NCBI GenBank assembly: GCA_017960475.1
Contig: JAGCZH010000018.1
Location: 1-64,000, forward strand
Length of the DNA: 64,000 nucleotides
Source of the DNA: Bacteroidales bacterium
GTDB lineage: Bacteria > Bacteroidota > Bacteroidia > Bacteroidales > P3
Reading direction: 5' to 3'
The notes under the pieces are model-generated. The model worked only from the letters and a program-made list of their open reading frames with translations, was not told the origin of the DNA and ran no database searches. Made by a program: the position numbers and the translations under genes. Shown here piece after piece: positions 10,528 through 64,000 of this stretch (within the stretch, counting starts at the first letter, position 1; each line of letters opens with the position of its first letter).

Positions 10528-10592
10528 CACTTTATTAGTTTGAACAGTTTGTTTAGTTTTATACATCTTGTTCATATCGTGTGTAGTTTTAT

Positions 10593-11126
10593 TCATATCG
10601 TTAACATGGGATTATTTTGTAATGCATCGACTAAAGGATGATAGACATTACGATCTTTAACTTCGGTTATGGTGTTCACTTTCTTCCCCGCATCTTTGGA
10701 GGATGCACCACAATGATATTTTTTTTCGGTTGCTGTACCATAGTCCAGAATGATGTACCTGTCATGAAAGATACCATTAGCCTTGCGGAAAGGTTTCCTT
10801 GTACCACCCCAGCTTGAAGTCAAATTTTTTGACATCAAGTTGCCATCAATCTTTTTTTCGTCTGATATATATATAGTTGAATTGTTTTCTAAGGTCAATT
10901 TTTTTGACCTTAGAATATTTTCGTACTCCTCTTTGGCCAACTGGAAACGGAAGTCTTCGTCAAACTTCTGGATGTTATTCTTTACCTGCTGGTTGAACGC
11001 TTTTGTAGTATATCCATAGATAGTAGCCAAGTCTGCGTCAAGCATTACCTTGACACCTCGTACCTCATAAATATACTTTTTGAGGTTGTCATGATTATCT
11101 ATGTGTTGCAGATTGTTGGTAGGCAT
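10593..11126 (-). CDS. ORF6N-domain protein, apparently internally deleted (177 aa)
   Basis: Residues about 15-85 match the ORF6N DNA-binding domain typical of phage and mobile-element proteins: VRGVKVMLDADLATIYGY, then TKAFNQQVKNN and FRFQLAKEEYE. The usual next block (TSSWGGTRKP followed by an AFTEQGVAML-type segment and a coiled coil) is cut short. Here TSSWGGTRKPF runs straight into FHDRYIILDYG and YHCGASSKDAG, which I recognise as the C-terminal end of longer family members. This looks like an in-frame internal deletion of a protein that is usually about 250-300 residues. Its stop overlaps a possible start of the giant gene downstream by 4 bases. It may be a decayed mobile-element gene or a shortened regulator. 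Family assignment is fairly sure; function is not. Confidence 0.75.
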   Translation of the reverse strand: MPTNNLQHIDNHDNLKKYIYEVRGVKVMLDADLATIYGYTTKAFNQQVKNNIQKFDEDFRFQLAKEEYENILRSKKLTLENNSTIYISDEKKIDGNLMSKNLTSSWGGTRKPFRKANGIFHDRYIILDYGTATEKKYHCGASSKDAGKKVNTITEVKDRNVYHPLVDALQNNPMLTI

Positions 11127-14264: not shown

Positions 14265-17200
14265 TTACTTCTTAATGACTTTCTTGACCACGGTGCCGTG
14301 GGCTGTTTTGACACGTACGTAGTAGGAGCCTGCCGGGTGGTCGCGGAGGTCGAAGTTCATGATGTCGCCATCGACACGGCGCAGGAGGACGCGGCGGCTG
14401 ACGTTGTCGTAGACCTCGACGCTTTGCAGTTCGCTACCCTCGACGGTGACCATGCCCCTCGTTGGGTTGGGGTAGACCTTGACGTCGGTGAGCTGGCTGC
14501 TGACCTGAGGTGTCTCGTTGTTGCTGTTGACGACATAGAGAGTGAGGAAGACCAGGGAGTCGCAGCCGTAGGCGTTGTAGAGGCTGTCGACATAGATGAA
14601 GGTGTAGATGTCGCGGTGACCCTGACCGGCGATGCCGGCGCGGATCTCCTCGTCGCTGAACTGGAGGCCGAAGCCTTCGTAGGCCTGACCGAGGACGACG
14701 CTGTCGGATACCATGGTGCTGTCGCCATTGTTGATGGTGAGCACGAGGGTGAAGGTGCTGTCGAGGTAGTCGCTGCTGTCGACGACATGGAAGATGTAGC
14801 GTCCTGACTGGTCGAAGGTGAGGCCTTCGAACTCATATTCGTAGCAGCTGACGATGTTGAGGGAGTCGTAGATGGAGATCATGTCGGGATCGCCGAAGAC
14901 CGGGTAGCCGCTGTTCTCGCCCTCGAGGTCGGAGCGCCATGTGTTGTAGTGTATCTCGTCGGAGTTGTTCTTGACCCATGCGTTGAGGACGCGGGTGAGG
15001 TTGGTGTAGCCGTTGATGCGTTCGGTGAGGCCCACCTGGTTGCCGTAGCCGCTGAAGGTCGTGGACTTCTGTATAGCACCACCGTTGAGGGTGTAGCCTG
15101 TCATCTGGCCTGCCATGCCGTCGACATAGTAGCAGTTGCTGATGCTTACATTCTGTCCGAGGTTGCCTACGAGACCGCCGACGTAATCATCGCCCTTGGT
15201 GACACCATAGACATAGTTGTTGTTCATGTTGAGAGCCTCAGCCTTACCAATCAAACCGCCGACACGGTGGTTGTTGTCGTCGGTGACGATGTGGACGTAG
15301 TTGTTGTTGTAGTTGGCTCTTTCGCCTGACTTGACATTGCGTCCTTTCTTGCCGTTGCCGTTGCCATTTCCGTTGCCGTTGGTGTTGGATGTCGTGTCTA
15401 CCTGACCTGCCAAGCTACCGATGTAGATGGCTGTGAGGTTGGTGGCGTTGAGGTCCATGTTGCCGTTGTAGATGTTGCTGCCCTCGTCGGTGCCGAAGAA
15501 GCCGCCCGCGGAGATGGCGCTACCTTTGATTTTGAGAGCGTCGCCTCTGGTGCTGAAGTTCTCGATGGTGCTGTTGAAGCCCTTGGCTACGACACCGCCG
15601 ATGATGTACTCGCCGAAGAGCGCGCCCGCGGTGAAGCTGATGTCCTTCATCGTGGTGCCGTGGGTTTCTGCGGCAAGACCACCGACTTGGTCGTTGCCCT
15701 TGATGGCGAGGTCTTGGAGACAGAAGCCCTCAAGTTCGGCGTTATCGGTGTAGCCCATAAAGCCGACACGTGTTATTGTTTTTTCGTTGACGATAATGTT
15801 GCGGATAATCGGAGCGGTGCCGTCGGCTACCTTGATGGTGCCTCTGAATGGGTTGTTGCTATTGCCGAGCGGGGTCCATTTGTATTTCTGCATGTCGACA
15901 GAGTCGAAGGCGTTGAGACCGCTGAAGTCAATAGTGATGGTGTTGTTTTGGAAGGAGTTTGCGTTCTGGTCGTTGAGGCCGTTGATGGTGCTTATGAGCC
16001 AAGCCAGACCCTCGCGGCTGGTGATGGTGACGTCGCCGTTGTATTCGCGGACATAGCCTGCGGGTTTGGAGGTGACATGCCGATACCAGTATTCTGTAGG
16101 AGCGTAGTAGACCTCGATATTGTTTTCGGCGTTGTTGTCGCGAACCACGAAATTGGTGACTGAGTCGGACGACGGGTCGAAGTTCCAAGCCATATACTCG
16201 TAACCGGGTTTAGGTTGCGGGACGAGGTGCAGTGTCGCGCCAGGGCAGAAGTCGGCGGTAGAGAGGTCGACTTCGTGGCCTACAGCGATATCGTTGGCCA
16301 GGTAGCTGTTGATACCGTTGGCGGGAGAGACAGGACGCGCGTCGGAGGGCAGCATGGTTGCTGTGACCTTATATGACTGGTAGACACGGAGGTAGCGGGG
16401 TACCATCGGGTCGGCATAGACCGTTGCCGAGAGGCCGGAGTTGGAAGCCACACGAGTGTCGTTGTAAGGTTTGCCTTGATACTTCCAAGCGTCGCGACGA
16501 TGCTCTTCGGTGTCGAAGTCGTCGGAGGCGTAGTCGTAGCCTGGGTTGTTGGTGAAGCCGGCGCGGCGGAGACCTTTACGATCCATGCCGTCCATGTCGG
16601 TGCGGTGGACCCAGCGCTGTACGTCGTCGGAGGTGTAGTCCACCACCTCGTTGCCGCCAGCGTCGTAGAATTTGTCTTCCGTGGCGTTGTAGTTGACATG
16701 GTCGTGGAAACTGCTGCTGTCGACGCCCGAGGCGTGGATGCCGTCGCCGATGCGGTAGTGGAGTTCCGAGAGGTTGGGGTTGTTATCGTGGAGCAGGAAG
16801 TTGTCGACATCCTCATGATAGGTGGCGTCGGTGACTTTGGCGACACGTACCATGAAGGGCTGTTCTACGAAGCAGCCGCTGATGTCGGTAGCCTGTACAC
16901 GGTAGAGGTAGGTGGATTTCTGTATACTCTGCGGGTGGTGGAGAGCCGTGAGGACGAGGGTGTCGACCTGGGCACGGCCACGGAGTTTGGAGTAATAGTT
17001 GGAGCTGCTGCCATCATTCATGTTAGAGATGTTGTTGCCGCCGAAAGTCTGGCGAGAACGCAGCTGATTGTCGGTGGAGAGGACAGCGGGAGTAACGCTG
17101 TTGCCTTCCTCTTCGACGATATCCTGGAGCCAGGTGTAGGTGTAGGGGAAGAAACCGCCGCCGACGCGGAAGAAGACAGAGTCGGTGGAAGCCACACAGG

Positions 17201-20200
17201 TAGCTGTCTGGTTCCAATGGTAGGCGATGCTGTCACCCTCTTTGAAGTCGTTGAAGATAACACCGTTGCATGCCGTTGTCGGGATTTGGGTGACACCCTT
17301 GCCGAAGGTGGCGCAGCGGTGCAGGTAGACCATGTTGGGGTGTACATACTCGTGGAAGAAGACGGAGACCTGGTCACCATAGCCGGGGTTGGCAGTGGTG
17401 TTGCGTGTATAGGCGACCTTGTCGTTGGGATCGATAAGGAATGATGCCTCTGCTGGAGGATATTCGGGGTTGGGGACACGCTCGGCATTCACTGTTATGT
17501 CGACAGGAATTTCGGGTGAGCGGTTGTCGATGCTATAGAAGACAGAGTCGTTGAAGAAGACATTGTTGTCGGTGGCCTGCTTGACGAGGTCGGTGGTACC
17601 GTAGGACTGGAAGACCACGGCGATGGTGTCGCGTGGGATGTAGTTCTCGAGTTGGTGGCTTGTCTCACTGTATTTATAGCCTGGGAACCACTTGCTGATA
17701 CCGATGCGTGTTGTCGCTGTCAGCTCGGTGGCGAGGCGCATGATGTCGCTCTTCTTGTCGCGGCGCACGCTGTTGGGGCATACGCCGGAGGTGCGGCTCA
17801 GGTATACGTTGTTGAGCGAATAGTACTCGGCGAAGTTGACGGTGTCGAGGATGTAGACGTCGAACAGTGTGGTGCTGCCGCCGAGTTCGTATTTCTTACG
17901 AGGTCTGACACCTGTCGCCATACCATTGCTCTTGAGGTAGTAGTTGTGTTTGATCTCGATGTCTGTAGCGGTCTTGTTGCTGGTGGCCGCGCCGAGGGTG
18001 ACAATACCGCCGTCGACATAGATACCGGCGCCGTAGTTCATGGGGTAGTTGGGGTAGTTGGCGTTGTCTACGGCATTCCAGTCGACCATGAGGTTGTCGG
18101 CGAAAAGGGTCTTGGGACCGAGGATAAGCTCAGGTTGTTTCATGCCGGGTTCTGCGATGAGAGCCACAGCGCCGCCGGGGATAACGTAGTTGGGGTTGGG
18201 GTTGTCGTTGACAGTGATGCGGTCGTCGTAGGTGTGGTTGCCGGTGTAGGTGTCGGGAATGTCGTCATCGTCAGTGTCGATCATCTCAAATCCCAGTTTA
18301 CCGTTGTTGAAGTTGTTGATGATGTGGACGTTGGTGCTGAGGTTGACGCTACCTTCCTGATGACAGTAGATGACTGGAGCATGGCTCTCGAGGAGTGTCT
18401 GAACACGGCGGGCGCGGGAGGCATAGTAAACGCCATTGGTGGCATCGTAGTACCAGTCTGTGATATTATCGCCTGCAGGTTGGCTATTGCTGCTCTCTTT
18501 GACACGGGTACAGTAGCTGCCGTTGATCCATACGTTGCGCAGCGACAGGTTGCCCTTGACATCGAAGAGGGCATGCTTGTTGGCGCGTTCCTCGCCCGGG
18601 AATGAATAGTGGCTGCCCGAGTAGCGGATAATCTGCATGATGCTGTAGTCGTCGCCCGAGAGGTTCTGGTAGGCGCCGCCGGCTTCGACGGGGACAGTCT
18701 CGAGGATGTCGATGACGTCGCCTTCACGATACATTGACGCGACATCGGAGAAGGTGCGCAGGTATTCGTCGGGGTTATTGTAGATATATGTGTTGAGTTC
18801 AATTTCAGGAGACAAAGCCACGTTGTCGGCGATACTATGTTTGAGTCTATGAGATTGTACTGTGAAACCGTTTCTGGTGAGAGTCTCGTCGGGAGCCCAA
18901 TAGATAGTGTCGCCATGCATACGGGTAAGCACATAGATCTTGAGGTCGAAGGTGCCGGAGCCCGTTGTTTTTGTGTTGGCCCAGCCGAGGTGGAGGGTCA
19001 CTGTCGCCAGACGGTTGTTGTAGCGGTTCTGGTATACCCAGTCGCCGTTGAAGTTGAGCTTGATGTCAACGGCAGCAGGTGCACGACCGTCGAGGGTGCC
19101 TATCAGAATGCCGCGTCCAGGATTGCTGATGACGGTTCTGTCGCTGGTGTGGCCTTCGCCGTTACCGTCGCTGAGGTAGTCGGTGTTGTCGTAGAAGATA
19201 GACTGGTCTCTCTTGTATGCATTCGCGCCAAGGCTTGGGTCGGGTCCCAGGAAGGTCTCGCTGTTGTTGCCTGTGGTGTTGCGAAGGTCGGCGAGGGCAG
19301 TGTTGTAGACGTCGATATTCTCGGTCTGGATGTGGTACCATCCGAGGTGGTTGGTGACGTTGTCGCTGTTGCTCTCAGAGGGGCAGACCTCGATGGAGAA
19401 GTGTTTGTTGTTGTCGATAGGAGTTTCGACGCCTTGCATGTGGAACCAGTCGTCATCGTCGATACCGCTGTTATGATCGTCGTCTGCTTCAATGTCGTTG
19501 AGAGCCCATTCGATACCCTCAATCCAGATGTCACGCTGGAGGAAGCCTGCGGGGATGGTGACTTTGCGGATATACTGGTTGGTGATACCCTCGTTGTACA
19601 TAGCCATGACGGGAGCCTCCATGTTGCCGAAATCTCTAATCACGGTGCTGATGGTAATGATTACATCAACAGGACCCACATAATTACCCTGCGAGTCGAA
19701 CTCCTGCATACGGAAGAGGATGTCGCGGGTGATGGTGTTGGTGATATTCTTATTATATGTAAGAGTGAATGTCAGAGAGGGGATGATGCCGATACCAGGT
19801 TTGACAGTAGGCGAGATGTAGCCTTCTGTCTCGGTGTACCAGCGGTTGCCTACGACGAGAGAGTAGGGCCAGCAGGTGCTGCTGCTATTGATGACACGCT
19901 CGTTGGCGTTTATTTGTCCAACGATGTCGCTGGTCCAGCAGCTGCTGTTGTCGAAAGCGGCGACATTGTTGAAGTTGGCGGGAGCGCCGGAACCGCTGTT
20001 GCTGGTGAAAGCGAGACCAAAATAGCGGTTGGGGTTGCTTGCTATGTCGGCGAAAGAGGAGTGACGGTTGCCGTCGCCAGCTTGGAAGACATAGCTGGTT
20101 CCGCCGTAGTTGTCTTTGACAAAGCCTTCGTCGACGAGGTGAAGGTCACCGCCGTTTTCCTGGTCGATGACAACCTGGTTGATGACGTAGAAGTTGCCGC

Positions 20201-23200
20201 CGTTTGATGGGGGCAGCTCAAGTTTTGCTGTGGCATAGCCAAAGTCGTCGCCAGGGGCGAAGGTATGTGATGTCGCTGTTGTTGCGGGAGCAGCGTTGGG
20301 AGCCTCGATGACATCGAAGGTGCCGTCGAGGTTATAGTTGAGTCGGTCGTCGGGAACGGCGTTGGCCACGAGGGTGATGTGGCGTGTGCGGCTACCGAGC
20401 TGCGAGCCTACGCGCCAGGTGCGGTAGGAGGGAGCATCGATTAAGTTTACGTCGACATAGTCGATTTCGTTGGGATAGGTGCCTTCGTTGTCGCAGAGAC
20501 AGGGAGCCACGAAGCCGCCGTCGTTGGCGCCTACGCCAGCTTTTCTACGGCCATAGACATAGGCCATGGTTTTGTCCTCGTTGACGAGGTAGGACCAACC
20601 ATGGACGCCGCCATAGACCACTTCGTCCTCAACACCGTCGCCTAGGAGACTTCCGCCGACAGCGTCGATTTTGTCGATGAAACGCGAGAGCTGGAAATAG
20701 GAACCGTTGGCCATAACGATGCTGTTGAAGGCGCCGGTCTGGTCGAGTTGACCACGGGCTGTGGACATCTTCTCGCAGAAGCCGAAGTCCTGGCAGTCGC
20801 CGGGGTCTTCACCATCAGGACCTGGGCAGTCGACACCTGCGGCGAGGCCGTTGTGGAGGTTGTCGAGGAGCTCGTCGGCGACGACATTAACATCTCCACC
20901 GGTGTTCTGATAGAGCAGGTTGTTGTCGGCGTAGATCATCTGTACGTTTTTGCCATATTCTATGACACCGTGACCGTCGGGGAGTTTTTTCAAGCTGGAG
21001 AGCTCGCCGATATATTTGGCGGGAGCCTGGAGCAAGAGGATGTTGTCGGTGAGCATGATGACGGTGTCGAGACGGTTAAGGCTATAGGAGGGAGAAGCGT
21101 AAGCCATGTAGGCATCCTGTTCGCCTTCGAGAGTGATGAAGACGCTGTCGAGGATGAGCTTGTCGGCACGCTGTATAGAGCTGAGACGGCGTGAGGGGCG
21201 TGGGCAATCCCAGTCGCCGTAGTGGCGAATGGTGATAGTGCGGGTGACGTCGCCACCCTCGGTGGAGGTGCCCGAGCCGATAACGCTATAGCGGATGTTC
21301 ATAGAGGGGAGCATGTTCATCTCGGTGTTGGTCTGAGAGATGTTGTAGCCCTTACCGTCGATGAGGATGTTGGTCTCGCCGCCATAGACACCGCGGGTGT
21401 TGAAGTATGGGTTGTCGAGAGCCTCGCCCCAGTCGCTACCATTATAAACAGATGTGCGGAGGTTGACGGGGTTTTCCATAGTTGAGTTGAGTGTCTCGTT
21501 GGAGGCTATGACCTGGTTGCCAGGGGTGACGCCGGTGATGTTGGGCTTGTAGGCTGCCATGGTGAATGTGTTGGGAACTGTGCCGTAGGTTCTGGACCAT
21601 ACGGGGCTCTCGTAAACGGCGTGGGATCCGATGTTGATGTAGACAGAGCCGTAGATGTTACCTTGGTATCCGCCGCCGTAGACGCTCTTCTCGATGGTGC
21701 CGCCGACGATGTTGATGACACTGGAGGGGCGCAGGGTGCTGTTGTTGGCGAAGGTTTTGCGCAGAGAGTTGGTGTACCATTTCTCTGCGGTGTATGCCAC
21801 GCTCTTGCACTCAAAGGGGTAGCCGTCGTCGACGGACTCGCTGCCGCCGTATACGCTCATCTCGACGTGGCCGCCGTCCATATTGAAGACTTTGAAGCCA
21901 TAGACAAGCTGTTTGCCAAGCTCGCCGCCGTCGACATTCTTGCCTACAGCCTCAGCAGGGTCGGTGACAGCGTCGTTGGTCCACTCTTTGGCGCCGAAGT
22001 AACGCCAGGTGCCCATGTCGGCTTTGCCGCGGGCACCCGAGAAAATGTGGCGGTGGAAGTTGCCGCCATGGACGTTGAGGGTGATGTTGCCATAGTCTTC
22101 GGTGAGAACATTGGCGGGATTCATGTCGCGGTTGCCGACAAGACCCATGTTGCCGCCGCCATAGACGGTGTTGAGGAAGTGGCCGCCATTGATGGTGACG
22201 TCGACATCCATGGAGTAGGGGATGATGTCAGCGCAGGTGAGCTCGTTGTCAGCTTTGAGAGCCCAAACAGGATGCTCGGCGCTGCCGGTGTTGTTAGCGA
22301 TGAGTTCTGCGTTTTCCCAAAGGTTGCCTTCGCTGCCCTCGGTGCCTATGCGGCTGGTAAGCCAAGCGCGGTAGTCGTATTCGCCGTTGCCGCTACCAAA
22401 GACATGGGTGAAGGTACCGCTATTGACGATGAGTTCGGTGCTGTTGACGCGGCCGGTGAAGTCGTTGCCGCCATAGATGGTGTCGATAATCCAGGAGCCA
22501 TTGGTGGGCTCGTAGGCGTTGATGAGGCCTGTCGCGGCGACTTGTACGTCGCTGGCGAGGCAGCCGAGATAGAGGGCTTTGAGGGGAGCCTGGGCAGTGG
22601 CTTCATAGCGCACCACTGTGGTTCCCACGTTGCCGGAGCGTCCGCCACCGAACATTACGTGGCGTGCGCCGGTAAGGCTTTGGAAGTTGCGGACGGTGAG
22701 CACGGCGCTGTCGAGGACGTTGCCCATGGCTGTGGCGTTGTCAATGTAGCCGTCGATGTGCTGGCCTGTAACGTCGAGTTTAGCGACAGCGATATAGGTA
22801 TCGTGGCATCCGTCGCCGATTTTGATACCTTGGTTGTTGATACGGCCTTGGCCGGCGCCGAAGACCATGCCGCCCAGGTTGCCGCCCTCGGCGTCGAGGA
22901 GGACATCGGTTTTGCGGCAGTCGCCAGAGATGCCACCACCATAGATGCTGCCTTCGAGGGTGACATTGTCACGGATGATGACCGAGGCGCTGTCGACATA
23001 AGGACGACCTTTAAGGTCTTGATACATCTTTTGGGTGACTTTGTCGCGGATGTAGTAGTTTTGGGTGACATAGCTAGGTTTGGCGTGCCAGTTGCTGGCG
23101 AGGTCTTTGTATTGGTTTATGTGGCTTGGGTCGTTGGGGTCGTTGTAGCGATAGAAGGGGTAGTCGCCGTTGCCACCGCCGTAGACGTCGCCATGGATGG

Positions 23201-25862
23201 TGAGGTCGGCGTCGCCGCCGATGAGGACGTGGGAGCTAGGCACTTCGCCCGAGGCGTCGTTGCCGCCGAAGATCTTGCCTCCGATATAGCCTTTGGTTAC
23301 ACTGACATAGCTGTCTTGCTCAAGGTCGGCGGCGTTGCAGCCTGCATATACATGGTGTGCCACGGCCATCTTGGGAGAGGCGATGGGCACATAGGTGCTG
23401 AGGGAGAGGTTTTTGATGAACTCGTTGCCGGTCATGCCGCCGAGGTTGCCGCCACCATAGACGTAGCCTGCTTTACCTTTGACGAGGACCATGCGAGGCA
23501 CTTTGGTCATGTTGACAACGTTGTTGCCGCCAAAGAGGTTGCCGACATTGATGTTGCTGGCATCTTCTGTGGGGTCGTCGCCGACGCAGTTCATGTATAC
23601 GAAAGCGCGTCCCGCGCCGAGGGTGGAGCCGTCGGTGCCTTGGGTACCGCTGGCGGTGAGGGCTGTGCTACCGTCGCCGTAGTTGACGACATCGACACCT
23701 ACAGTGGCGCTGTTGCCGCCGGCATAGACGTTGCCGATGGTGCCGGTTTTGTTCATGTTGATGTCGACGAAGCCGCTATATTGTGTGGGGATAGCCACAG
23801 GGCGCTGGCAGCGCGACACTGTCTCGGTGTAGCGATCGTTGCTTTCCACAATCCAGCCACTTTCGTCGTCGAAATATTCGTAGTTGTATGCGCCGTTGCC
23901 GCCGCCGTAGACGCTACCTGAGATGGTGGGAGAGCCTTGTACGAGGACATAGGAGGCCGCGTTGGCCTGGTTGAGGGCGATGGTGGTATGGCCGCCGTCG
24001 AGGACGGGGATAGGAGCGATGGTGTCGAGGGTCACGCCGTCGGCTTTGGCGGTGCTGTTGCCAGTACGGCCACGGCCTGTGACGGTACCGGTTTTGTCGT
24101 TGCCGCCATAGACGTCGCCATAGATGGTGCCGCCGGTGATGATCATGTCGGCGGTGCCATAGACGCAGGCGAAGTTGCCGCCGCCGAAGATGCTGGCGCT
24201 ATTGGTGGCGTCGTCGCCGATGGTGCCTCCAGTGATTTTGACCTTGGTGGAGCCGTTGCCAGCAGCGTAGTCTTGCTTGGCCACGGTGACCAGGTTGCCG
24301 CCACCATAGATGTGCTGGAGAACGGTGCCGTTGCTGACGAGGACATTGGTATGGAAGATGGAGGGTATGTTGACGCCGGCGAGCTCGGTGTGAGTGTTCT
24401 CACTGCTGTTGAGCGAATATTTGGCGTTGACATCGTTGTAGGTGCTGTTGCCCATGCAGCGGTAGTATCCGTTGCTGCCGCCGAAGATGGTCTGGTAGAC
24501 CGTGGCGTTGGCGCCATCGATACGGACGTTGGATTTGGCGTCGTTAGGTATGTCGCCCGAGATGTTGGTACCGCCGAAGATGGTGCCTACCTTACCCTCG
24601 GTGACACAGACGTAGGTGTCGTGGGCTGTACCGGCGCTCTGACCGCCACCGTAGATGGTGTCGCAGATGATGTTGGACGAGTTGAGGACGACATATGTGC
24701 TGAGGGTTGCTGTGCCGCTGCCCTCGTTGTCGGTGGTGCTCTTGCTGGCATAGGTCGCAGAGCCGTTCATGACGCCTTTGTTGCCGCCGCCATAGACGTT
24801 GTGGATGCCGCCTTTGGTGAGGGTGAGAGTGGGTATGCCGGACATGTCTGCAGCGTTGTTGCCGCCGAAGAGGCAGCGGATGTCGAAGACGCTGGTGACA
24901 GGGCTGTAAGCTACGGGAGTGGTATGGTAGGGAGAATGAGCGAGGTCGTAAAGAGGTGTTGTGACGTTGACAGTGACAGTGGTGCTGGTGACGTCGGCGC
25001 TGTTGCCGCCGGCGAAGAGGGTGTCGATCTGGCCGCCGGTAACGCTGATGACGACATTTTTGCCAGCCACCTTGTTGCCGCCGCCGAAGAGGTAACGGAT
25101 GCCATGCTCGCTGTTGTCGCTAGTCCAAGCGTGGCCATATTGTTCCTTGCCGCCGAGGTTGACGGAGGTGGTGTTGTCGACGAGGGTGTTGGTAACGCTG
25201 ATGCTCTGGGTGGAGCCGTCGCCGAGGAAACCGCCGAAGTTGTTGCCGCCAAAAACGGAATACATGACTCCGCCGTTGATGGCGAGAGTGGTGTTGGTGT
25301 TGTTCTCGAGGCTAATGAAAGCGTTCTTGGCGCCGCCGAAGAGCGAGTCGATACGGGGATAGTCGGTGTTGACTGTGACGGAGGTCTTGCTGATTGAGGG
25401 GAAAGACAAAACCTTGTTGGCATCACCTGTGTTGGTCCAAGCTATCTCACCAGGTTGGTGGGCCTTGGTCATGGCCTTGATCGAGGCTGACGGAGCTACT
25501 GTCTGTGAGCTGTAGCTGTCGCTGGCAGCTTGGAATGATGTGCCGTTGTAAGCGTAATAGCCGTTGCCGCCGCCGTAGACAGAACCGATGGAGATTTGTG
25601 CCGCGGTGTGGTCAACATGTCCGATGGTGATGGTGGAACCGTTGGCACCATTGACGGTACCGGCGATATCGTTGCCGCCATAGACTGCAGAAACAGTGTC
25701 GCAATCGTAAACTTTGACAACGGTGTTGCCGTTAACGTCGGCCATACGGCCACCGCCAAAGACAGCTCCTCCGATGGTCTGACCCTGTGCCACTCCGGCA
25801 CCAAGAATCATCATCGAAACAGCCATCCATGTTTTAACAATTTTTAACATATATCTTTTCAT
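14265..25862 (-). CDS. Giant T9SS-secreted YGGG-repeat surface protein (3,865 aa)
   Basis: A signal peptide (MKRYMLKIVKTWMAVSMMIL, ending near AQGQ) leads directly into the repeats: GGAVFGGGR, then SVYGGGNGYY, LFGGAKNA and many more. The array continues to about residue 1,400. Residues about 1,400-3,300 are a non-repetitive extracellular region with few Cys. Residues about 3,390-3,580 carry GLUG-like segments (GGLIGKAEAL, VGGLVGNLGQ) and an Asn-Gly run. The last 72 residues (VKVYPNPTRGMVTVEG to VVKKVIKK) are a type-A T9SS sorting domain, so the protein should cross the outer membrane by T9SS and be anchored at the surface. It shares its repeat type with the giant gene at the left edge. An adhesin or S-layer-like role is an inference. 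A -7 box at 26012-26019 is the likely promoter. Confidence 0.92.
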   Translation of the reverse strand: MKRYMLKIVKTWMAVSMMILGAGVAQGQTIGGAVFGGGRMADVNGNTVVKVYDCDTVSAVYGGNDIAGTVNGANGSTITIGHVDHTAAQISIGSVYGGGNGYYAYNGTSFQAASDSYSSQTVAPSASIKAMTKAHQPGEIAWTNTGDANKVLSFPSISKTSVTVNTDYPRIDSLFGGAKNAFISLENNTNTTLAINGGVMYSVFGGNNFGGFLGDGSTQSISVTNTLVDNTTSVNLGGKEQYGHAWTSDNSEHGIRYLFGGGNKVAGKNVVISVTGGQIDTLFAGGNSADVTSTTVTVNVTTPLYDLAHSPYHTTPVAYSPVTSVFDIRCLFGGNNAADMSGIPTLTLTKGGIHNVYGGGNKGVMNGSATYASKSTTDNEGSGTATLSTYVVLNSSNIICDTIYGGGQSAGTAHDTYVCVTEGKVGTIFGGTNISGDIPNDAKSNVRIDGANATVYQTIFGGSNGYYRCMGNSTYNDVNAKYSLNSSENTHTELAGVNIPSIFHTNVLVSNGTVLQHIYGGGNLVTVAKQDYAAGNGSTKVKITGGTIGDDATNSASIFGGGNFACVYGTADMIITGGTIYGDVYGGNDKTGTVTGRGRTGNSTAKADGVTLDTIAPIPVLDGGHTTIALNQANAASYVLVQGSPTISGSVYGGGNGAYNYEYFDDESGWIVESNDRYTETVSRCQRPVAIPTQYSGFVDINMNKTGTIGNVYAGGNSATVGVDVVNYGDGSTALTASGTQGTDGSTLGAGRAFVYMNCVGDDPTEDASNINVGNLFGGNNVVNMTKVPRMVLVKGKAGYVYGGGNLGGMTGNEFIKNLSLSTYVPIASPKMAVAHHVYAGCNAADLEQDSYVSVTKGYIGGKIFGGNDASGEVPSSHVLIGGDADLTIHGDVYGGGNGDYPFYRYNDPNDPSHINQYKDLASNWHAKPSYVTQNYYIRDKVTQKMYQDLKGRPYVDSASVIIRDNVTLEGSIYGGGISGDCRKTDVLLDAEGGNLGGMVFGAGQGRINNQGIKIGDGCHDTYIAVAKLDVTGQHIDGYIDNATAMGNVLDSAVLTVRNFQSLTGARHVMFGGGRSGNVGTTVVRYEATAQAPLKALYLGCLASDVQVAATGLINAYEPTNGSWIIDTIYGGNDFTGRVNSTELIVNSGTFTHVFGSGNGEYDYRAWLTSRIGTEGSEGNLWENAELIANNTGSAEHPVWALKADNELTCADIIPYSMDVDVTINGGHFLNTVYGGGNMGLVGNRDMNPANVLTEDYGNITLNVHGGNFHRHIFSGARGKADMGTWRYFGAKEWTNDAVTDPAEAVGKNVDGGELGKQLVYGFKVFNMDGGHVEMSVYGGSESVDDGYPFECKSVAYTAEKWYTNSLRKTFANNSTLRPSSVINIVGGTIEKSVYGGGYQGNIYGSVYINIGSHAVYESPVWSRTYGTVPNTFTMAAYKPNITGVTPGNQVIASNETLNSTMENPVNLRTSVYNGSDWGEALDNPYFNTRGVYGGETNILIDGKGYNISQTNTEMNMLPSMNIRYSVIGSGTSTEGGDVTRTITIRHYGDWDCPRPSRRLSSIQRADKLILDSVFITLEGEQDAYMAYASPSYSLNRLDTVIMLTDNILLLQAPAKYIGELSSLKKLPDGHGVIEYGKNVQMIYADNNLLYQNTGGDVNVVADELLDNLHNGLAAGVDCPGPDGEDPGDCQDFGFCEKMSTARGQLDQTGAFNSIVMANGSYFQLSRFIDKIDAVGGSLLGDGVEDEVVYGGVHGWSYLVNEDKTMAYVYGRRKAGVGANDGGFVAPCLCDNEGTYPNEIDYVDVNLIDAPSYRTWRVGSQLGSRTRHITLVANAVPDDRLNYNLDGTFDVIEAPNAAPATTATSHTFAPGDDFGYATAKLELPPSNGGNFYVINQVVIDQENGGDLHLVDEGFVKDNYGGTSYVFQAGDGNRHSSFADIASNPNRYFGLAFTSNSGSGAPANFNNVAAFDNSSCWTSDIVGQINANERVINSSSTCWPYSLVVGNRWYTETEGYISPTVKPGIGIIPSLTFTLTYNKNITNTITRDILFRMQEFDSQGNYVGPVDVIITISTVIRDFGNMEAPVMAMYNEGITNQYIRKVTIPAGFLQRDIWIEGIEWALNDIEADDDHNSGIDDDDWFHMQGVETPIDNNKHFSIEVCPSESNSDNVTNHLGWYHIQTENIDVYNTALADLRNTTGNNSETFLGPDPSLGANAYKRDQSIFYDNTDYLSDGNGEGHTSDRTVISNPGRGILIGTLDGRAPAAVDIKLNFNGDWVYQNRYNNRLATVTLHLGWANTKTTGSGTFDLKIYVLTRMHGDTIYWAPDETLTRNGFTVQSHRLKHSIADNVALSPEIELNTYIYNNPDEYLRTFSDVASMYREGDVIDILETVPVEAGGAYQNLSGDDYSIMQIIRYSGSHYSFPGEERANKHALFDVKGNLSLRNVWINGSYCTRVKESSNSQPAGDNITDWYYDATNGVYYASRARRVQTLLESHAPVIYCHQEGSVNLSTNVHIINNFNNGKLGFEMIDTDDDDIPDTYTGNHTYDDRITVNDNPNPNYVIPGGAVALIAEPGMKQPELILGPKTLFADNLMVDWNAVDNANYPNYPMNYGAGIYVDGGIVTLGAATSNKTATDIEIKHNYYLKSNGMATGVRPRKKYELGGSTTLFDVYILDTVNFAEYYSLNNVYLSRTSGVCPNSVRRDKKSDIMRLATELTATTRIGISKWFPGYKYSETSHQLENYIPRDTIAVVFQSYGTTDLVKQATDNNVFFNDSVFYSIDNRSPEIPVDITVNAERVPNPEYPPAEASFLIDPNDKVAYTRNTTANPGYGDQVSVFFHEYVHPNMVYLHRCATFGKGVTQIPTTACNGVIFNDFKEGDSIAYHWNQTATCVASTDSVFFRVGGGFFPYTYTWLQDIVEEEGNSVTPAVLSTDNQLRSRQTFGGNNISNMNDGSSSNYYSKLRGRAQVDTLVLTALHHPQSIQKSTYLYRVQATDISGCFVEQPFMVRVAKVTDATYHEDVDNFLLHDNNPNLSELHYRIGDGIHASGVDSSSFHDHVNYNATEDKFYDAGGNEVVDYTSDDVQRWVHRTDMDGMDRKGLRRAGFTNNPGYDYASDDFDTEEHRRDAWKYQGKPYNDTRVASNSGLSATVYADPMVPRYLRVYQSYKVTATMLPSDARPVSPANGINSYLANDIAVGHEVDLSTADFCPGATLHLVPQPKPGYEYMAWNFDPSSDSVTNFVVRDNNAENNIEVYYAPTEYWYRHVTSKPAGYVREYNGDVTITSREGLAWLISTINGLNDQNANSFQNNTITIDFSGLNAFDSVDMQKYKWTPLGNSNNPFRGTIKVADGTAPIIRNIIVNEKTITRVGFMGYTDNAELEGFCLQDLAIKGNDQVGGLAAETHGTTMKDISFTAGALFGEYIIGGVVAKGFNSTIENFSTRGDALKIKGSAISAGGFFGTDEGSNIYNGNMDLNATNLTAIYIGSLAGQVDTTSNTNGNGNGNGNGKKGRNVKSGERANYNNNYVHIVTDDNNHRVGGLIGKAEALNMNNNYVYGVTKGDDYVGGLVGNLGQNVSISNCYYVDGMAGQMTGYTLNGGAIQKSTTFSGYGNQVGLTERINGYTNLTRVLNAWVKNNSDEIHYNTWRSDLEGENSGYPVFGDPDMISIYDSLNIVSCYEYEFEGLTFDQSGRYIFHVVDSSDYLDSTFTLVLTINNGDSTMVSDSVVLGQAYEGFGLQFSDEEIRAGIAGQGHRDIYTFIYVDSLYNAYGCDSLVFLTLYVVNSNNETPQVSSQLTDVKVYPNPTRGMVTVEGSELQSVEVYDNVSRRVLLRRVDGDIMNFDLRDHPAGSYYVRVKTAHGTVVKKVIKK
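15351..15387 (-). repeat. Asn-Gly hexanucleotide repeat in the giant gene
   Basis: About six near-identical 6-base units (GGCAAC or AACGGC-type on the coding strand) encode NTNGNGNGNGNG just before KKGRN, around residue 3,500. Copy number may vary by slippage without changing the frame, because the unit is 6 bases. Confidence 0.7.
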
Positions 25863-58766: not shown

Positions 58767-58819
58767 GCTTGTTGTTATCTCTTTTTACAGATAAAGTAAC
58801 GTAATGATATCTTTTTTCG

Positions 58820-58827
58820 TATATTTG
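58820..58827 (+). promoter_or_regulatory. -7 box of the M1 peptidase gene
   Basis: TATATTTG followed by CA fits TAnnTTTG. It lies 36 bases before the ATG at 58864 and argues against the longer frame that begins at 58804. The -33 element is poor. Confidence 0.5.
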
Positions 58828-58863
58828 CATTTTGTAAAAAAAGAATACAAAGGATATATTGTT

Positions 58864-61209
58864 ATGAAATTCAAACTCTTTTTAATAGCGACCCTGTTTT
58901 TTTACTTCATGGCTTCCTTCGAGGCTAAGTCGCAAGTCAGAGCAAAGACAACGGACAGCGTCGATGCCATTCATTACGATTTGCATTTGGACATTGGCAA
59001 TAAGGCCTACCACCGCATGGAAGGGTGGACAACCGTAACTTTGCGAATTGTCACCAATGTCGACACTATCGGGTTGGAGCTATGTCCATCCGATGTCGAC
59101 TCTGTGCTTGTCGACGGTGTGGCTACGCCATTCTCCTTCAATCCCTCCCAGCGGATGTTAAGAATACCTTGCAACGCCCATGCCGGCGACACCGTCGCTG
59201 TCTCTGTATATTACAGCAAAGGAGGCAGCGTTATGGCGGAAGGCTGGGGCGGCTTTTATTTTGACGAAAACATATATTATAATTTAGGTATAGCATTGTA
59301 CGAGTATCCGCACAATGTTGGCAAGGCATGGTTCCCGTGCCGCGACAATTTCACCGACAAGGCGACGTATAGTTTCCATATCACCGCCAAGCCAGGCTGG
59401 AAGGCTATATGCACAGGCTTGTTGGATACCGTTGAATACCATGCTGACGGCAGTAGCACATGGAATTGGGAGCTGTCGAGGCAAACACCCACCTATCTGG
59501 TAGGTGTCGCTGTGGCGCCGTTTCATGTGATAGAGAGGAGTTTTCAGGGGGAGAATGCTGTCTATCCAGCCATGTTGGGCTTTTTGAACCATGACAGCAC
59601 AGGGGTGTGGAATGCCTATAGTCATATGAGCAAGGTGATACCCGCCTTTGAGAGATGTTTCGGTCCATACCTATGGGACAGGGTGGGCTATGTGTCAACA
59701 CCCAAGGGCTCTATGGAGCATGTGGGCAACATCGCGTTCACAACAATTTGTATGGCTTCGCAGGATGAGGCGTGCCTTGCCACAATGTCACATGAGTTCG
59801 CCCACTCATGGTTTGGCAATCTGGTGACATGTGCCACCAATAACGATATGTGGATAAATGAAGGAGGGGCCTCTTTCTGTGAGGAGGTCGCCGTGGAGGC
59901 GATATATGCCGACAGCGATCCGCAGAGATACAGATACTATGCCCGTGAGAACCTGTACGATGTTTTGACGAGGACACATGTGCGTGATGATGGATTCAAG
60001 CCTTTGTACGGGCAGACGCCGAGATACACATACGGTTCGACGGTATACAATAAGGGGGCTACGGTGTGGCATTCGCTTAGGGGCTACCTTGGTGACACGC
60101 TTTTTTACGCCTCATTACATACACTATTCGAGCGTTGTGCTTTCGGCAACATAGACTCCTGGCAGCTTCGCGACAGCTTGTCGCTATACAGCGGGGTGGA
60201 TCTCACCGACTTTTTCGATTTCCATGTCTTCAATCCAGGCTTTATAGACTATGTCGTGGACTCTTTGCATAATGAAGGTCAGACTACCACTATAGCTATA
60301 CGTCAAAAGAGTTATGGCACAGACGCTATTGCCAGAGGCAACAAAGTAATGGTAACATTTGTCTCCCCCAATGGCGTAAAGGCCAGCCGGCAGTTGACTT
60401 TTGACGAAGAGGCGGTCAGCGCCACTTTTGAGCTTCCTTTCGCGCCTTTGTATGCCGTTGTCAACTATGACGACAGGCTCTCGTTGGCATCTCTGGGCAA
60501 TGAGCAGACAACGAGAGAGAGGGGGAGGATAAATATGGATGATGTGCATTTTGCCGCCAATATTAATTCCATAGATGCCGGTGATAGCATTTGGATGTAT
60601 GTCGTCCATCACTGGTCACGCCCAGACAGTATCAACCGTGGCAATTTCATGCGCTTTGCCAAACATTTCTGGACAGTGAGCACTATAGCCTCAGAAAGTG
60701 CAAAGATAGCTGGACGTTTCCACTATTCCACCATAGGACTCACTGCCCTTGACAAGGACTTCATATCCTCGTCGTCGGAGTTTGGCTTGGTGCGTTTGGT
60801 GTACAGAGAGCACGCAGGTCTCGAATGGAGAGAGGTCTCGTCGCTGAACACTGGTAGCGCCGGTGAGGGCTATTTTGTCTACAACAATCTTAAGCCTGGT
60901 GAGTATACTCTGGCTATGGTAGACACAAGTTATGTGGGTGTTACAGAACCTATAAAATATAATGGCAAGTCCGTACGAGTCTGCCCCAATCCCACTTCAG
61001 GCAGTATCAGTATTGTCACTGATGAGCCAGGCGAGATTCTCAATGTTGAGATTGTCGATGTCGCAGGTCGTAAAGTGATGAAATCTCGACAAGTCGTTAG
61101 CGGAGAACAACTGGTGTTGGATCTGCCTACTGGCGTGTATATGGTGAATGTCAGGAATGAAGACACCGGTGAAAGAAGTTCAATAAAAATGAACTTTAAG
61201 AAAAATTAA
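58864..61209 (+). CDS. M1-family metallopeptidase with T9SS sorting domain
   Basis: The signal peptide is MKFKLFLIATLFFYFMASFE ending near AKSQ. The zinc site is HEFAH at residues 310-314 with the third ligand Glu333 (HExxH-18-E). The substrate motif reads GSMEH where most M1 aminopeptidases have GxMEN. The last 75 residues or so (VRVCPNPTSGSISI onward) form a type-A T9SS sorting domain, so the enzyme should be exported to the surface or secreted. From 58864 it has 781 residues. It probably feeds on peptides. The ECF sigma gene follows after 40 bases. Confidence 0.93.
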   Translation: MKFKLFLIATLFFYFMASFEAKSQVRAKTTDSVDAIHYDLHLDIGNKAYHRMEGWTTVTLRIVTNVDTIGLELCPSDVDSVLVDGVATPFSFNPSQRMLRIPCNAHAGDTVAVSVYYSKGGSVMAEGWGGFYFDENIYYNLGIALYEYPHNVGKAWFPCRDNFTDKATYSFHITAKPGWKAICTGLLDTVEYHADGSSTWNWELSRQTPTYLVGVAVAPFHVIERSFQGENAVYPAMLGFLNHDSTGVWNAYSHMSKVIPAFERCFGPYLWDRVGYVSTPKGSMEHVGNIAFTTICMASQDEACLATMSHEFAHSWFGNLVTCATNNDMWINEGGASFCEEVAVEAIYADSDPQRYRYYARENLYDVLTRTHVRDDGFKPLYGQTPRYTYGSTVYNKGATVWHSLRGYLGDTLFYASLHTLFERCAFGNIDSWQLRDSLSLYSGVDLTDFFDFHVFNPGFIDYVVDSLHNEGQTTTIAIRQKSYGTDAIARGNKVMVTFVSPNGVKASRQLTFDEEAVSATFELPFAPLYAVVNYDDRLSLASLGNEQTTRERGRINMDDVHFAANINSIDAGDSIWMYVVHHWSRPDSINRGNFMRFAKHFWTVSTIASESAKIAGRFHYSTIGLTALDKDFISSSSEFGLVRLVYREHAGLEWREVSSLNTGSAGEGYFVYNNLKPGEYTLAMVDTSYVGVTEPIKYNGKSVRVCPNPTSGSISIVTDEPGEILNVEIVDVAGRKVMKSRQVVSGEQLVLDLPTGVYMVNVRNEDTGERSSIKMNFKKN

Positions 61210-61249
61210 CATTTTATTTTCGTCTTTTTCCCTTTTTAGGCACACTTCC

Positions 61250-61813
61250 ATGAGTGTAATGAAATCTCTAGACACAGTAATAGAAGGGTGCAGGAAAGGC
61301 GACCAAGCTATGCAAAGGGAGCTATACGAGCGTTATAGCGCCCGTTTCTATGCTTTGAGTCGTCGTTATGCCAAAGATGACTTTATAGCCAAAGAGATTC
61401 TTGTGGATGGTTTTTTAGAGGTGTTCAACAACATAAAAAAATATAGAGGAGAAGGCTCTTTTGAGGGGTGGATGCACACAATCTTTGTGCGCAAGGCGTC
61501 GGCGAGCTATCACAGGGAGACTTTGTTACCCACATGTCGTGAAGATGAAATTTTAGAGGATATGAAGGCCGAGCAAAACGACATAGACCGTCAGATAGAT
61601 ATAAAAGAGGCGTTTGTGGTGGCGTTAAGGAGGCTTTCAGACGACGACCGCTCGTTGTTTAATGTCATAGCAATTGAGGGCTATTCCTTCCCTGAGGCAT
61701 CGCGATTGTTCGACACACCCCCGACGACTCTGAAATCACGATACTACAAGATAAAGCAAATCCTCGGTGAGGAGCTGAAAATGCAATTGGGGGATAGATA
61801 TTTAAGAGAATGA
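61250..61813 (+). CDS. ECF-type RNA polymerase sigma factor
   Basis: Region 2 is at about residues 25-90 (LYERYSARFYALSRRYAKDD, GSFEGWMHTIFVRKASASYH) and region 4 at about residues 125-180 (LRRLSDDDRSLFNVIAIEGY, SFPEASRLFDTPPTTLKSRY). The length of 187 residues fits the extracytoplasmic-function class. An alternative ATG lies at 61259. The next gene, 41 bases on, codes for a one-TM protein of anti-sigma type, its likely partner. The regulon is unknown; a link to T9SS is suggested by both neighbours. Confidence 0.94.
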   Translation: MSVMKSLDTVIEGCRKGDQAMQRELYERYSARFYALSRRYAKDDFIAKEILVDGFLEVFNNIKKYRGEGSFEGWMHTIFVRKASASYHRETLLPTCREDEILEDMKAEQNDIDRQIDIKEAFVVALRRLSDDDRSLFNVIAIEGYSFPEASRLFDTPPTTLKSRYYKIKQILGEELKMQLGDRYLRE

Positions 61814-61854
61814 ATAAAAGATAGTAATAGGAATAATACGATTTTGATAATACC

Positions 61855-62703
61855 ATGGAAGATATAGAAAAACTGATGAGAGAAACGCTTAAGGATGCCG
61901 AAATGAAGGCACCTGAAGGTGTTTGGAGCGACATAGAGGGTCGTCTTGCCTCAAAGAGTGCGACGCTTAGACGTCTCAGATGGGTGTCTGCGACAGTGGT
62001 TGTCGCCGTAGCGGTCACCACGGCTATCATTATGCTTGGCGGCAATGGGAAAGGCGCTGACACTGCCGTTGTCGCACAGACCTCGATAGCTGATGACGTC
62101 ATAACTGTCAGCGAGCAAGCAAAAGAGGAATCTTTGCCAACAGTAGTGGCTTCAAAAGACGAGACAAAAGTCAATAAAGTCAACTCCGAAACACCGTCAA
62201 CAGTCGAGAAGAGAGACAAAGGGATAGGGGTAAAAGAGATAGAGCCTCAGGTTGTGACACCAAGCAATAACACCAATGCAATTGATGCTCAAAAGAAAAT
62301 GGCATTAAAGACTGCCGATGATGAGGATAAGCATGACCATGTCGATGTCAAAGCGGATAATAAAGAGAAGACTCCTGTCGCTGTTGTGGAGAGCGTGAAA
62401 ACGGACAAAGATAATGGCGAGCCGGAGCCAAAGACCAAACCTCAGGATTTGATTATAAGCATTCCCAATGTCATAACACCCAATGGTGACGGATATAACG
62501 ACTGCTGGCGAATACCCGATTTGGAGCGGTATTCTCATGTCGCGGTACAGATATTCACGGCAAAGAGTCAGCAAATATATTCTTCCAGCGACTATCGTGG
62601 CGATTTTTGCGGCGCTGATCTTCCTGAAGGCAATTATTTCTATGTCATTCGTATACGCGACATCAACTATAGTCGCCGAGGAGTACTTGTAATAAAAAGA
62701 TAA
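61855..62703 (+). CDS. Putative anti-sigma protein with one TM segment and gliding-type (T9SS type-B) C-terminal domain
   Basis: Residues 1-40 (LMRETLKDAEMKAPEGVWSD) show the short AP-x-x-VW-x-x-I-x-x-x-L pattern that I know from Bacteroidota proteins encoded behind ECF sigma genes. RRLRW precedes a single TM segment (VSATVVVAVAVTTAIIMLGG, about residues 44-63), so the N-terminus should be cytosolic. A charged linker of about 130 residues follows. The last 80 or so (VITPNGDGYNDCWRIP to SRRGVLVIKR) form a gliding-motility-type C-terminal domain, the type-B T9SS signal. There is no signal peptide. It may be a membrane anti-sigma factor whose periplasmic end senses T9SS; this is inference. Confidence 0.8.
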   Translation: MEDIEKLMRETLKDAEMKAPEGVWSDIEGRLASKSATLRRLRWVSATVVVAVAVTTAIIMLGGNGKGADTAVVAQTSIADDVITVSEQAKEESLPTVVASKDETKVNKVNSETPSTVEKRDKGIGVKEIEPQVVTPSNNTNAIDAQKKMALKTADDEDKHDHVDVKADNKEKTPVAVVESVKTDKDNGEPEPKTKPQDLIISIPNVITPNGDGYNDCWRIPDLERYSHVAVQIFTAKSQQIYSSSDYRGDFCGADLPEGNYFYVIRIRDINYSRRGVLVIKR

Positions 62704-62706
62704 GCG

Positions 62707-63675
62707 ATGGTGAAGGAAGAGAGATACAGACAGCTATATGCACAGATAAAGAGTGTCGCGGAAGGGGAGAGCGACAGTATTGCCGTTATGGCCAACATGG
62801 CGGCGATGATTCATGATGCTTTTCATTTCTGGTGGACCGGTTTCTATCGTGTTGTTGAAAGAGAGCTTGTGTTGGGACCTTTCCAAGGGCCTCTGGCGTG
62901 TATGCATATAGGCTATGGTCGAGGCGTATGCGGCACAGCGTGGAAAGAGCGTCGCACGGTGGTTGTCCCCGATGTGGAGCAGTTTCCTGGTCATATAGCT
63001 TGCAGCAGCGAGAGCCGTAGCGAGATAGTTGTTCCAGTAGTGCAGAAGGGTGCTGTCGTGGCCGTGCTGGACATCGACAGCCGTGAGCTTGACACTTTCG
63101 ACGACACCGATGCTGAATGGCTTGAGAAGATTGTCGCCCTGCTGCCGCCACTTGGCGGCGAACAGGAAATATATCTTGCCGCCGGTTGCTTCTGGGGTGC
63201 GGAAAAATACCTTAAACTTATAGAAGGTGTAACCTTCACCGAGGTAGGCTTCGCCAACGGCAACGCCGAAAACCCTACTTACAAGGAAGTCTATACCGAT
63301 AATACGGGATATGCCGAGACGGTGCATCTGCGATATAACCCTAATGTGGTGAGCCTACGCTTCCTGCTCGAGATGTACTTCAAGGCCATCGACCCAACCA
63401 GCCTTAACAAGCAGGGCGAGGACGAAGGTACACGCTACCGCACAGGAATCTACTATTGCAATCAGTCTGACCGCGCTATTATTGACGATGTTACGGCTAA
63501 AGAGGCGAAGAAGTACGGATTGCCGTTGCAAGTCGAAGTGGAACCGTTACGCAACTTTTACCGTGCCGAGGAATACCATCAAGACTACCTCGACAAGAAC
63601 CCATCCGGCTACTGCCACCTGCCCGTCGCCCTTTTCGAACTGGCAAAGAAAGCGAAGGATATTGTGCGACAATAA
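62707..63675 (+). CDS. Fusion of free methionine-R-sulfoxide reductase and MsrA (322 aa)
   Basis: Residues 1-150 are a GAF-fold fRMsr: Cys65, Cys75 and Cys99 (in LACMHIGYGRGVCGTAW and FPGHIACSSESRSEIVVPV) have the 10- and 24-residue spacing of the known enzyme's three cysteines. Residues about 155-322 are MsrA, with the catalytic GCFWG (Cys161) and late cysteines in YYCNQSD and PSGYCHLPV. The join LLPPLGGEQEIYLAAGCFWG has no linker. The protein should repair free Met-R-sulfoxide and Met-S-sulfoxide. No signal peptide is seen, so it is cytosolic. It starts 3 bases after the putative anti-sigma gene and is probably in the same operon. Confidence 0.93.
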   Translation: MVKEERYRQLYAQIKSVAEGESDSIAVMANMAAMIHDAFHFWWTGFYRVVERELVLGPFQGPLACMHIGYGRGVCGTAWKERRTVVVPDVEQFPGHIACSSESRSEIVVPVVQKGAVVAVLDIDSRELDTFDDTDAEWLEKIVALLPPLGGEQEIYLAAGCFWGAEKYLKLIEGVTFTEVGFANGNAENPTYKEVYTDNTGYAETVHLRYNPNVVSLRFLLEMYFKAIDPTSLNKQGEDEGTRYRTGIYYCNQSDRAIIDDVTAKEAKKYGLPLQVEVEPLRNFYRAEEYHQDYLDKNPSGYCHLPVALFELAKKAKDIVRQ

Positions 63676-63748: not shown

Positions 63749-64000
63749 ATGTTATGCAGGGGGAAACATATATGGCTGTTGCTATTGTTGTTTGGCTGTG
63801 CCAGTCTGCGCAGCCAGGTCGTCGTCACCCTGCCTTTCTATGATAATTTTGAGAGTTACATTGAAGACTCAACTAGGCAAATCGATGCAACTTATTATTA
63901 TCATCCCGCCTATCATTTCTTCGGTGGCTGGGAAGGCTGTACTCGCGGTTGGGCGGGAAGTATGATTCGAAGGCCTCACATTTTGTTTGCGCCTTACAGC
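63749..64000 (+). CDS. Start of a secreted protein (3' end outside window)
   Basis: The frame is open for 84 codons to the window edge. It begins MLCRGKHIWLLLLLFGCASL and continues RSQVVVTLPFYDNFESYIED. The leader is either a signal peptide ending at RSQ or a lipoprotein signal with Cys18. The phrase F-x-x-N-F-E-S-Y followed by a GGWEGC block is typical of Bacteroidales surface proteins with a lectin-like jelly-roll domain, often T9SS cargo. The family cannot be fixed from the visible part. Heptad-like repeats lie at 63699-63745, just before it. Confidence 0.7.
   Translation, partial: MLCRGKHIWLLLLLFGCASLRSQVVVTLPFYDNFESYIEDSTRQIDATYYYHPAYHFFGGWEGCTRGWAGSMIRRPHILFAPYS

Follow-up and report, generated by a model that had tools for sequence, protein, structure and literature searches.

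In flagellar type III export, the export machine itself recognises the anti-sigma factor FlgM, and the late (cargo) genes controlled through sigma28 wait for export readiness; FlgM is a small, soluble protein that is fully secreted. Cell-surface signalling of the FecI–FecR type combines an extracytoplasmic function (ECF) sigma factor with a periplasmic regulator that has one transmembrane (TM) segment and reads an outer-membrane protein. How members of the Bacteroidota match the production of large type IX secretion system (T9SS) cargo to their export channels and shuttles is, to our knowledge, an open question. This report concerns a gene pair from Bacteroidales bacterium (assembly GCA_017960475.1), which encodes an ECF sigma factor and a one-TM protein with a T9SS type B sorting domain. 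The pair lies in the first 64,000 nucleotides of contig JAGCZH010000018.1, the stretch analysed here and referred to below as the window. We consider it rather probable that the pair forms a membrane switch, FlgM-like in logic, which couples the transcription of T9SS cargo to export capacity.

In Porphyromonas gingivalis, SigP controls the genes for T9SS components, and PorA, a surface sorting-domain protein with a signal peptide, acts upstream of PorXY-SigP via the PorY kinase (PMC7712824, in part). The same source, in the part cited, calls PorA the first such protein in the regulation of T9SS components. Type B substrates of the T9SS are reported to need specific, scarce shuttles of the PorP/SprF type, and the cited part of PMC12618676 makes the case for production of cargo and shuttles of type B in stoichiometric amounts. 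Searches of the open-access literature, judged by the papers listed, gave no description of an anti-sigma factor carrying a T9SS sorting domain.

The sigma factor and its membrane partner

The first protein of the pair contains regions 2 and 4.2 of Sigma-70 above the curated Pfam cut-offs (Sigma70_r2, E 1.3e-8, 35 bits; Sigma70_r4_2, E 1.1e-6, 28.6 bits) and reaches 56.9 bits with the NCBIfam model TIGR02937 (sigma70-ECF; cut-off 42.9), which identifies it as an ECF (group IV) sigma factor by sequence. Its true start may be the second ATG (MKSLDT...; Table 1), since the first ATG is missing from the ortholog in RUG244, a genome of a close species.

The partner gene (61855-62703) follows and encodes an N-terminus of about 43 residues, one TM segment, a linker of about 138 residues and a C-terminal type B T9SS domain. 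This combination with an ECF sigma factor, read from the letters in the first-pass annotation, was borne out by Pfam, NCBIfam and hydropathy. Alignments revealed an N-terminal motif, P...(W/F)..I...L (W24 in the window protein), and residues 1-43 are proposed as the putative sigma-binding part. The hydrophobic segment from residue 44 has a mean Kyte-Doolittle value of 2.31 over 19 residues, while no value at a distance of more than 25 residues exceeds 0.66. Five Lys or Arg residues occur among the 15 residues before this segment versus one among the 15 after it, so an N-in, C-out orientation is predicted from hydropathy. The structure model shows a helix at residues 23-61 with low confidence.

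Anti-sigma domain profiles above the cut-off were found neither in the window partner (Pfam, NCBIfam) nor in four relatives (NCBIfam), and the protein is therefore called anti-sigma-like. Also, the FecR domain was absent among its Pfam matches up to E 1. Judged by hydropathy, an N-terminal Sec signal peptide is absent: about 43 mostly polar residues precede the internal TM segment. The linker is poorly conserved in the homolog alignments and would in principle be long enough to cross the periplasm.

The C-terminal domain matched PF13585 (CHU_C; residues 201-279) with 64.5 bits against a cut-off of 27, and TIGR04131 (type B domain; residues 201-282) with 45.5 bits against a cut-off of 35. This block was modelled with predicted local distance difference test (pLDDT) values of 86-97. 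Its best fold match was 8glk_D, the NucA substrate bound in a T9SS complex. The domain includes Cys217 (62503-62505) and Cys252 (62608-62610), which may form a disulfide.

Recurrence of the pair and its two lines

Forty-five sigma/partner loci were collected from 38 genomes of at least eight families; the partner gene adjoins the sigma gene and lies downstream of it in all 45. The locus and genome counts are lower bounds. Among the 45 partners, the start of the hydrophobic segment ranges from residue 28 to residue 70, and in 35 of them more Lys and Arg precede the segment than follow it (hydropathy only); the position of the segment supports the first-pass view that the partner is unlike ordinary T9SS cargo. 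Homologs of the window partner number at least 41 at E 1e-3, and those of two distant relatives at least 38 and at least 70 at E 1e-10. Among the homologs listed for these three queries, PF13585 is present in 148 of 149, and query coverage is at least 98% in 33, 34 and 55, respectively. The pair is present in at least 25 of 37 genomes of the genus.

Thirty regions, picked by frame length and similarity and not at random, were fetched for comparison. A sigma gene was adjacent to all 15 proteins in which the match to the profile extended as far as the N-terminus and to none of the other 15, five of which run off the contig end. A scan of genome contigs with the window sigma factor alone was too narrow and yielded one locus, in RUG244. 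The phylum-wide search covered 296 genomes, 68 of which gave a match at E 1e-15; among the matches listed, full-length ones occurred only in the window's genome. Seven short-frame candidates from other orders had no sigma gene beside them, and two of these (L149, L150) end at contig ends.

The window's genome holds two pairs: the window pair on contig C38, assigned to line sub1, and a second pair on C32, assigned to sub2. Their sorting domains differ in form, being short in sub1 and carrying a longer WDG..G insert in sub2. The arrangement is a recurring module that comprises at least two paralogous lines, and not one odd protein. Both cysteines of the window partner occur in 19 of 23 aligned homologs and in 5 of 8 sub1 loci (one is missing in L074, both in L075 and L076); the pair of cysteines is absent from sub2. 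The same genome contains a further sigma-like gene (L062:2969-3897), which is followed by a gene for a small TM-bearing protein; no sorting domain was seen on the latter.

The distances among the sigma factors, the N-termini and the sorting domains correlate over the 45 loci (r 0.69 to 0.80; 0 of 2000 permutations), with shared ancestry contributing. Seven genomes with two pairs allowed 21 comparisons, in which the sub1/sub2 assignment coincided with the smaller distances of the sorting domain in all 21 and of the N-terminus in 19. The figure for the sorting domain is partly circular because distant paralogs were assigned partly by sorting-domain form. The corresponding signal in the sigma factors is clearest within a family. 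In the window's genome, the two paralogous switches with their two forms of the sorting domain appear to serve different cargo.

Promoter-like elements, candidate regulon and neighbouring genes

The pattern A[AG]C-N17-19-GTC precedes the sigma gene in 17 of the 37 loci outside sub1 (500 shufflings gave 1.6 on average and 5 at most) and ends 9-11 base pairs (bp) before the start codon in 12 of these 17. The form GCARCA-N16-GTCTAT has six exact matches in the window's genome. They precede the sub2 sigma gene, two genes for type B cargo (with open frames of 944 and 912 amino acids, aa), a gene for type A cargo of 500 aa (34.4 bits with Por_Secre_tail) and a gene for a secreted-looking protein of 549 aa (L204:299-1945) with no Pfam or NCBIfam match; the sixth has no gene behind it. 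When one mismatch was allowed, 37 matches were obtained versus 30 in the reversed control, which leaves the exact matches as the only informative class. In eight relatives from the genus, GYADCR-N16-GTCTATA occurs 13 times (control 7). Five of these matches lie before the sigma gene itself, four before genes for type B cargo (953, 981, 1005 and 900 aa), one before a lipoprotein-like gene and three before no gene. One unrelated genome contained a single match with no gene behind it.

The element upstream of the window sigma gene differs from that of sub2. A promoter shared by the two sigma lines was rejected, as the AAC-GTC element was found in none of the eight sub1 loci. With up to one mismatch, CGTCTTT-N13-CACACTT occurs twice in the window's genome (control 1), namely before the sigma gene and, at a distance of 76 bp, before a gene for type B cargo of 1052 aa, and TTAAC stands at an equal distance at both sites. 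RUG244 likewise has the element twice (control 0), before the sigma gene and 78 bp before the orthologous gene, whose product of 1053 aa shares 972 identical positions with its counterpart. The sorting domain of the 1052-aa target groups with that of the window partner with a support of 0.947 in a comparison of 13 domains; of the 15 CHU_C matches in the genome, C37 was dropped as very divergent and C38:105969 as being below the cut-off. The agreement is at class level only, and an exact matching of partner and target sorting domains was rejected.

Elements of either type precede 3 of the 13 non-partner CHU_C genes (two of the sub2 type and one of the sub1 type). Relaxed patterns revealed none before the other ten, including the gene on C28, which lies at a contig start with its upstream DNA absent. 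None of the candidate targets resembled machinery, chaperones or periplasmic proteases. The promoter-like elements and the cargo genes behind them support a candidate regulon, and suggest that the sigma factors may control genes for exported proteins.

T9SS cargo genes had been placed by the first-pass annotation directly upstream of the pair and probably downstream of it. The upstream part stands: an M1-family peptidase gene with a type A domain, the true start of which is likely the ATG at 58864, directly precedes the sigma gene with 40 bases between them. The directly downstream gene encodes a GAF-MsrA fusion instead, possibly on the same transcript as the partner, and the next gene is again one for type B cargo (CHU_C match at C38:65255-65458, 33.7 bits). 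The M1 peptidase family lies directly upstream in 9 of the 45 loci, including 7 of the 8 sub1 loci, and the GAF-MsrA family directly after the partner in four, all of them sub1. At nine other loci, the downstream family includes sorting-domain cargo, the domain itself being seen in two (L139 and L140). No PorP/SprF shuttle gene was found near the two pairs of the window's genome; its three such genes are on C19, C30 and C33.

In other families, the pair is flanked at L059, L127, L128, L129 and L137-L140 by a family resembling M16-type peptidases (by eye and clustering), and then by the family that includes sorting-domain cargo. The minus strand of the window contains very long open frames at 1-10596 and 14265-25862, of at least 3532 and at least 3865 aa, respectively.

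Table 1. Features of the window around the sigma/partner pair (all on the plus strand)
Feature	Position	Remarks	Basis
M1-family peptidase with type A T9SS sorting domain	58804..61209 (+)		Peptidase_M1, Por_Secre_tail (Pfam); TIGR04183 (NCBIfam)
Promoter-like element TTAAC-N10-CGTC...CACACT before the sigma gene	61206..61246 (+)	core recurs in the genome and in RUG244	
ECF sigma factor	61250..61813 (+)	187 aa; start may be 61259	Pfam, NCBIfam
Partner residues 1-43, predicted cytosolic N-terminus	61855..61983 (+)	basic near the membrane	alignments, hydropathy
Partner residues 44-62, single TM segment	61984..62040 (+)		hydropathy
Partner residues 63-200, linker	62041..62454 (+)	pLDDT <50 over 63-111 and 113-183	structure model
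Partner residues 201-282, type B T9SS sorting domain (CHU_C)	62455..62700 (+)	immunoglobulin-like	Pfam, NCBIfam, structure model
GAF-MsrA fusion protein	62707..63675 (+)	3 bases after the partner gene	Pfam, NCBIfam
Next T9SS type B cargo gene, start only	63749..64000 (+)	592-aa open frame, continues past the window	

Interpretation and comparison with described systems

In the proposed switch, the ECF sigma factor would be held at the inner membrane by its one-TM anti-sigma-like partner, whose predicted periplasmic end is a type B sorting domain on a long flexible tether. This domain would act as a bait and compete with genuine cargo for the type B route, that is, the translocon and a shuttle of the PorP/SprF type. 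When export capacity is free, the route would engage the bait, the tethered partner would be pulled or cut, and the freed sigma factor would direct transcription of its own operon and of genes for T9SS cargo. New cargo would then fill the route, leave the bait alone and allow the sigma factor to be held again. We infer the binding of the sigma factor, the competition, the release step and the polarity. Activation at free capacity is favoured because the candidate regulon consists of cargo and not of machinery. Since type B substrates need specific, scarce shuttles (PMC12618676, in part), the bait could sense the occupancy of shuttle or translocon.

The first-pass annotation had raised the possibility of a report on T9SS load or failure with release of the sigma factor. 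In an alarm for failing export, piled-up cargo or a stalled translocon would free or expose the sorting domain, the partner would be cut, and the sigma factor would be on when the T9SS is jammed. Architecture and pairing fit this equally well, and the repair enzyme GAF-MsrA follows the pair in the four loci mentioned above. However, the candidate targets are mainly cargo genes, for which reason a gate on cargo expression fits better, and extra cargo during a jam would worsen it; we regard such an alarm as unlikely. Still less likely, in our view, is that the sorting domain is exported and anchored at the outer membrane, one protein spanning both membranes and relaying an outside or envelope signal. 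The long linker with a complete sorting domain at the C-terminal end would suit this arrangement, as would the candidate targets, which are mostly predicted surface or secreted proteins. Yet such a protein would have to stay anchored by its TM segment during export of its tail, and no sensor domain scored above the cut-off between the TM segment and the sorting domain of the window protein (Pfam, NCBIfam).

The sorting domain might also merely tether the partner to an outer-membrane or T9SS component while another signal is read, for example redox state via Cys217 and Cys252. The frequency of both cysteines among the homologs and sub1 loci and the MsrA family beside four sub1 loci are in line with this idea, but the cysteine pair is absent in sub2 and incomplete in three sub1 loci and so is not a general signal. 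A redox-only reading was rejected on this ground, and the tether as such appears improbable. That the partner is an unusual secreted protein of the T9SS, standing after a sigma gene without regulatory meaning, seems highly improbable to us. In favour of this reading, its type B domain is real, the few relatives named in their sources are called gliding motility-associated and not anti-sigma factors, and some sub2 members, with 28-30 residues before the hydrophobic stretch, could pass for proteins with long signal peptides. Against it, the N-terminal motif is conserved, the gene accompanies a sigma gene in 45 loci with correlated divergence, and the hydrophobic stretch starts at the positions given above.

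Several caveats apply to the observations on the pair and its candidate targets. Shared ancestry contributes to the distance correlation, and the agreement with the line assignment is partly circular; for the sigma factors, 12 of the 21 comparisons agree with this assignment, eight are reversed and one is tied. The sorting domains of C3 and C21 score higher pairwise with that of the window partner than does that of the 1052-aa target. The elements of the window and RUG244 amount to little more than one observation because the two species are close. The co-occurrence with the T9SS, which had been named as a check, was found for the SprA translocon in 12 of the 13 genomes that carry the pair in the order sample, which is weak evidence since 232 of 247 genomes of the order have SprA. 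The remaining genome, G274, has 10 sorting-domain matches and no SprA match, possibly owing to a gap in its 94%-complete assembly.

If the coupling is real, it would let a cell of this gut Bacteroidales match production to its ability to export. A cargo-tagged membrane partner of a sigma factor would provide a direct feedback loop that is testable by deletion of one domain, and some proteins annotated only as sorting-domain proteins may be regulators. The broader proposal, of a secretion-signal anti-sigma factor drawn on by the T9SS as a tethered counterpart of the FlgM checkpoint, with parallel switches for each class of sorting domain in several Bacteroidales families, is plausible but more tentative.

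The likeness to FlgM would lie in recognition of the anti-sigma-like partner by the export machine, for which the sorting domain and the candidate cargo targets are seen in the sequence; unlike FlgM, the partner is membrane-tethered and of T9SS type, its export is putative, and no homology is claimed. An ECF sigma factor and a one-TM protein with a predicted periplasmic end are shared with FecI–FecR, but a FecR domain is missing from the Pfam matches, and a T9SS type B domain takes the periplasmic position. As in PorXY-SigP/PorA, an ECF sigma factor would stand over T9SS-related genes and a sorting-domain protein is involved (PMC7712824, in part); the difference is that the sorting domain resides on the putative anti-sigma factor itself and that the candidate targets are mainly cargo. 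The C-terminal domain has the family and fold of type B substrates, although neither the Sec signal peptide nor the often linked shuttle gene of known substrates was seen here (PMC12618676, in part). The parts are familiar, the logic is similar to that of FlgM, and the candidate regulon would be the new element.
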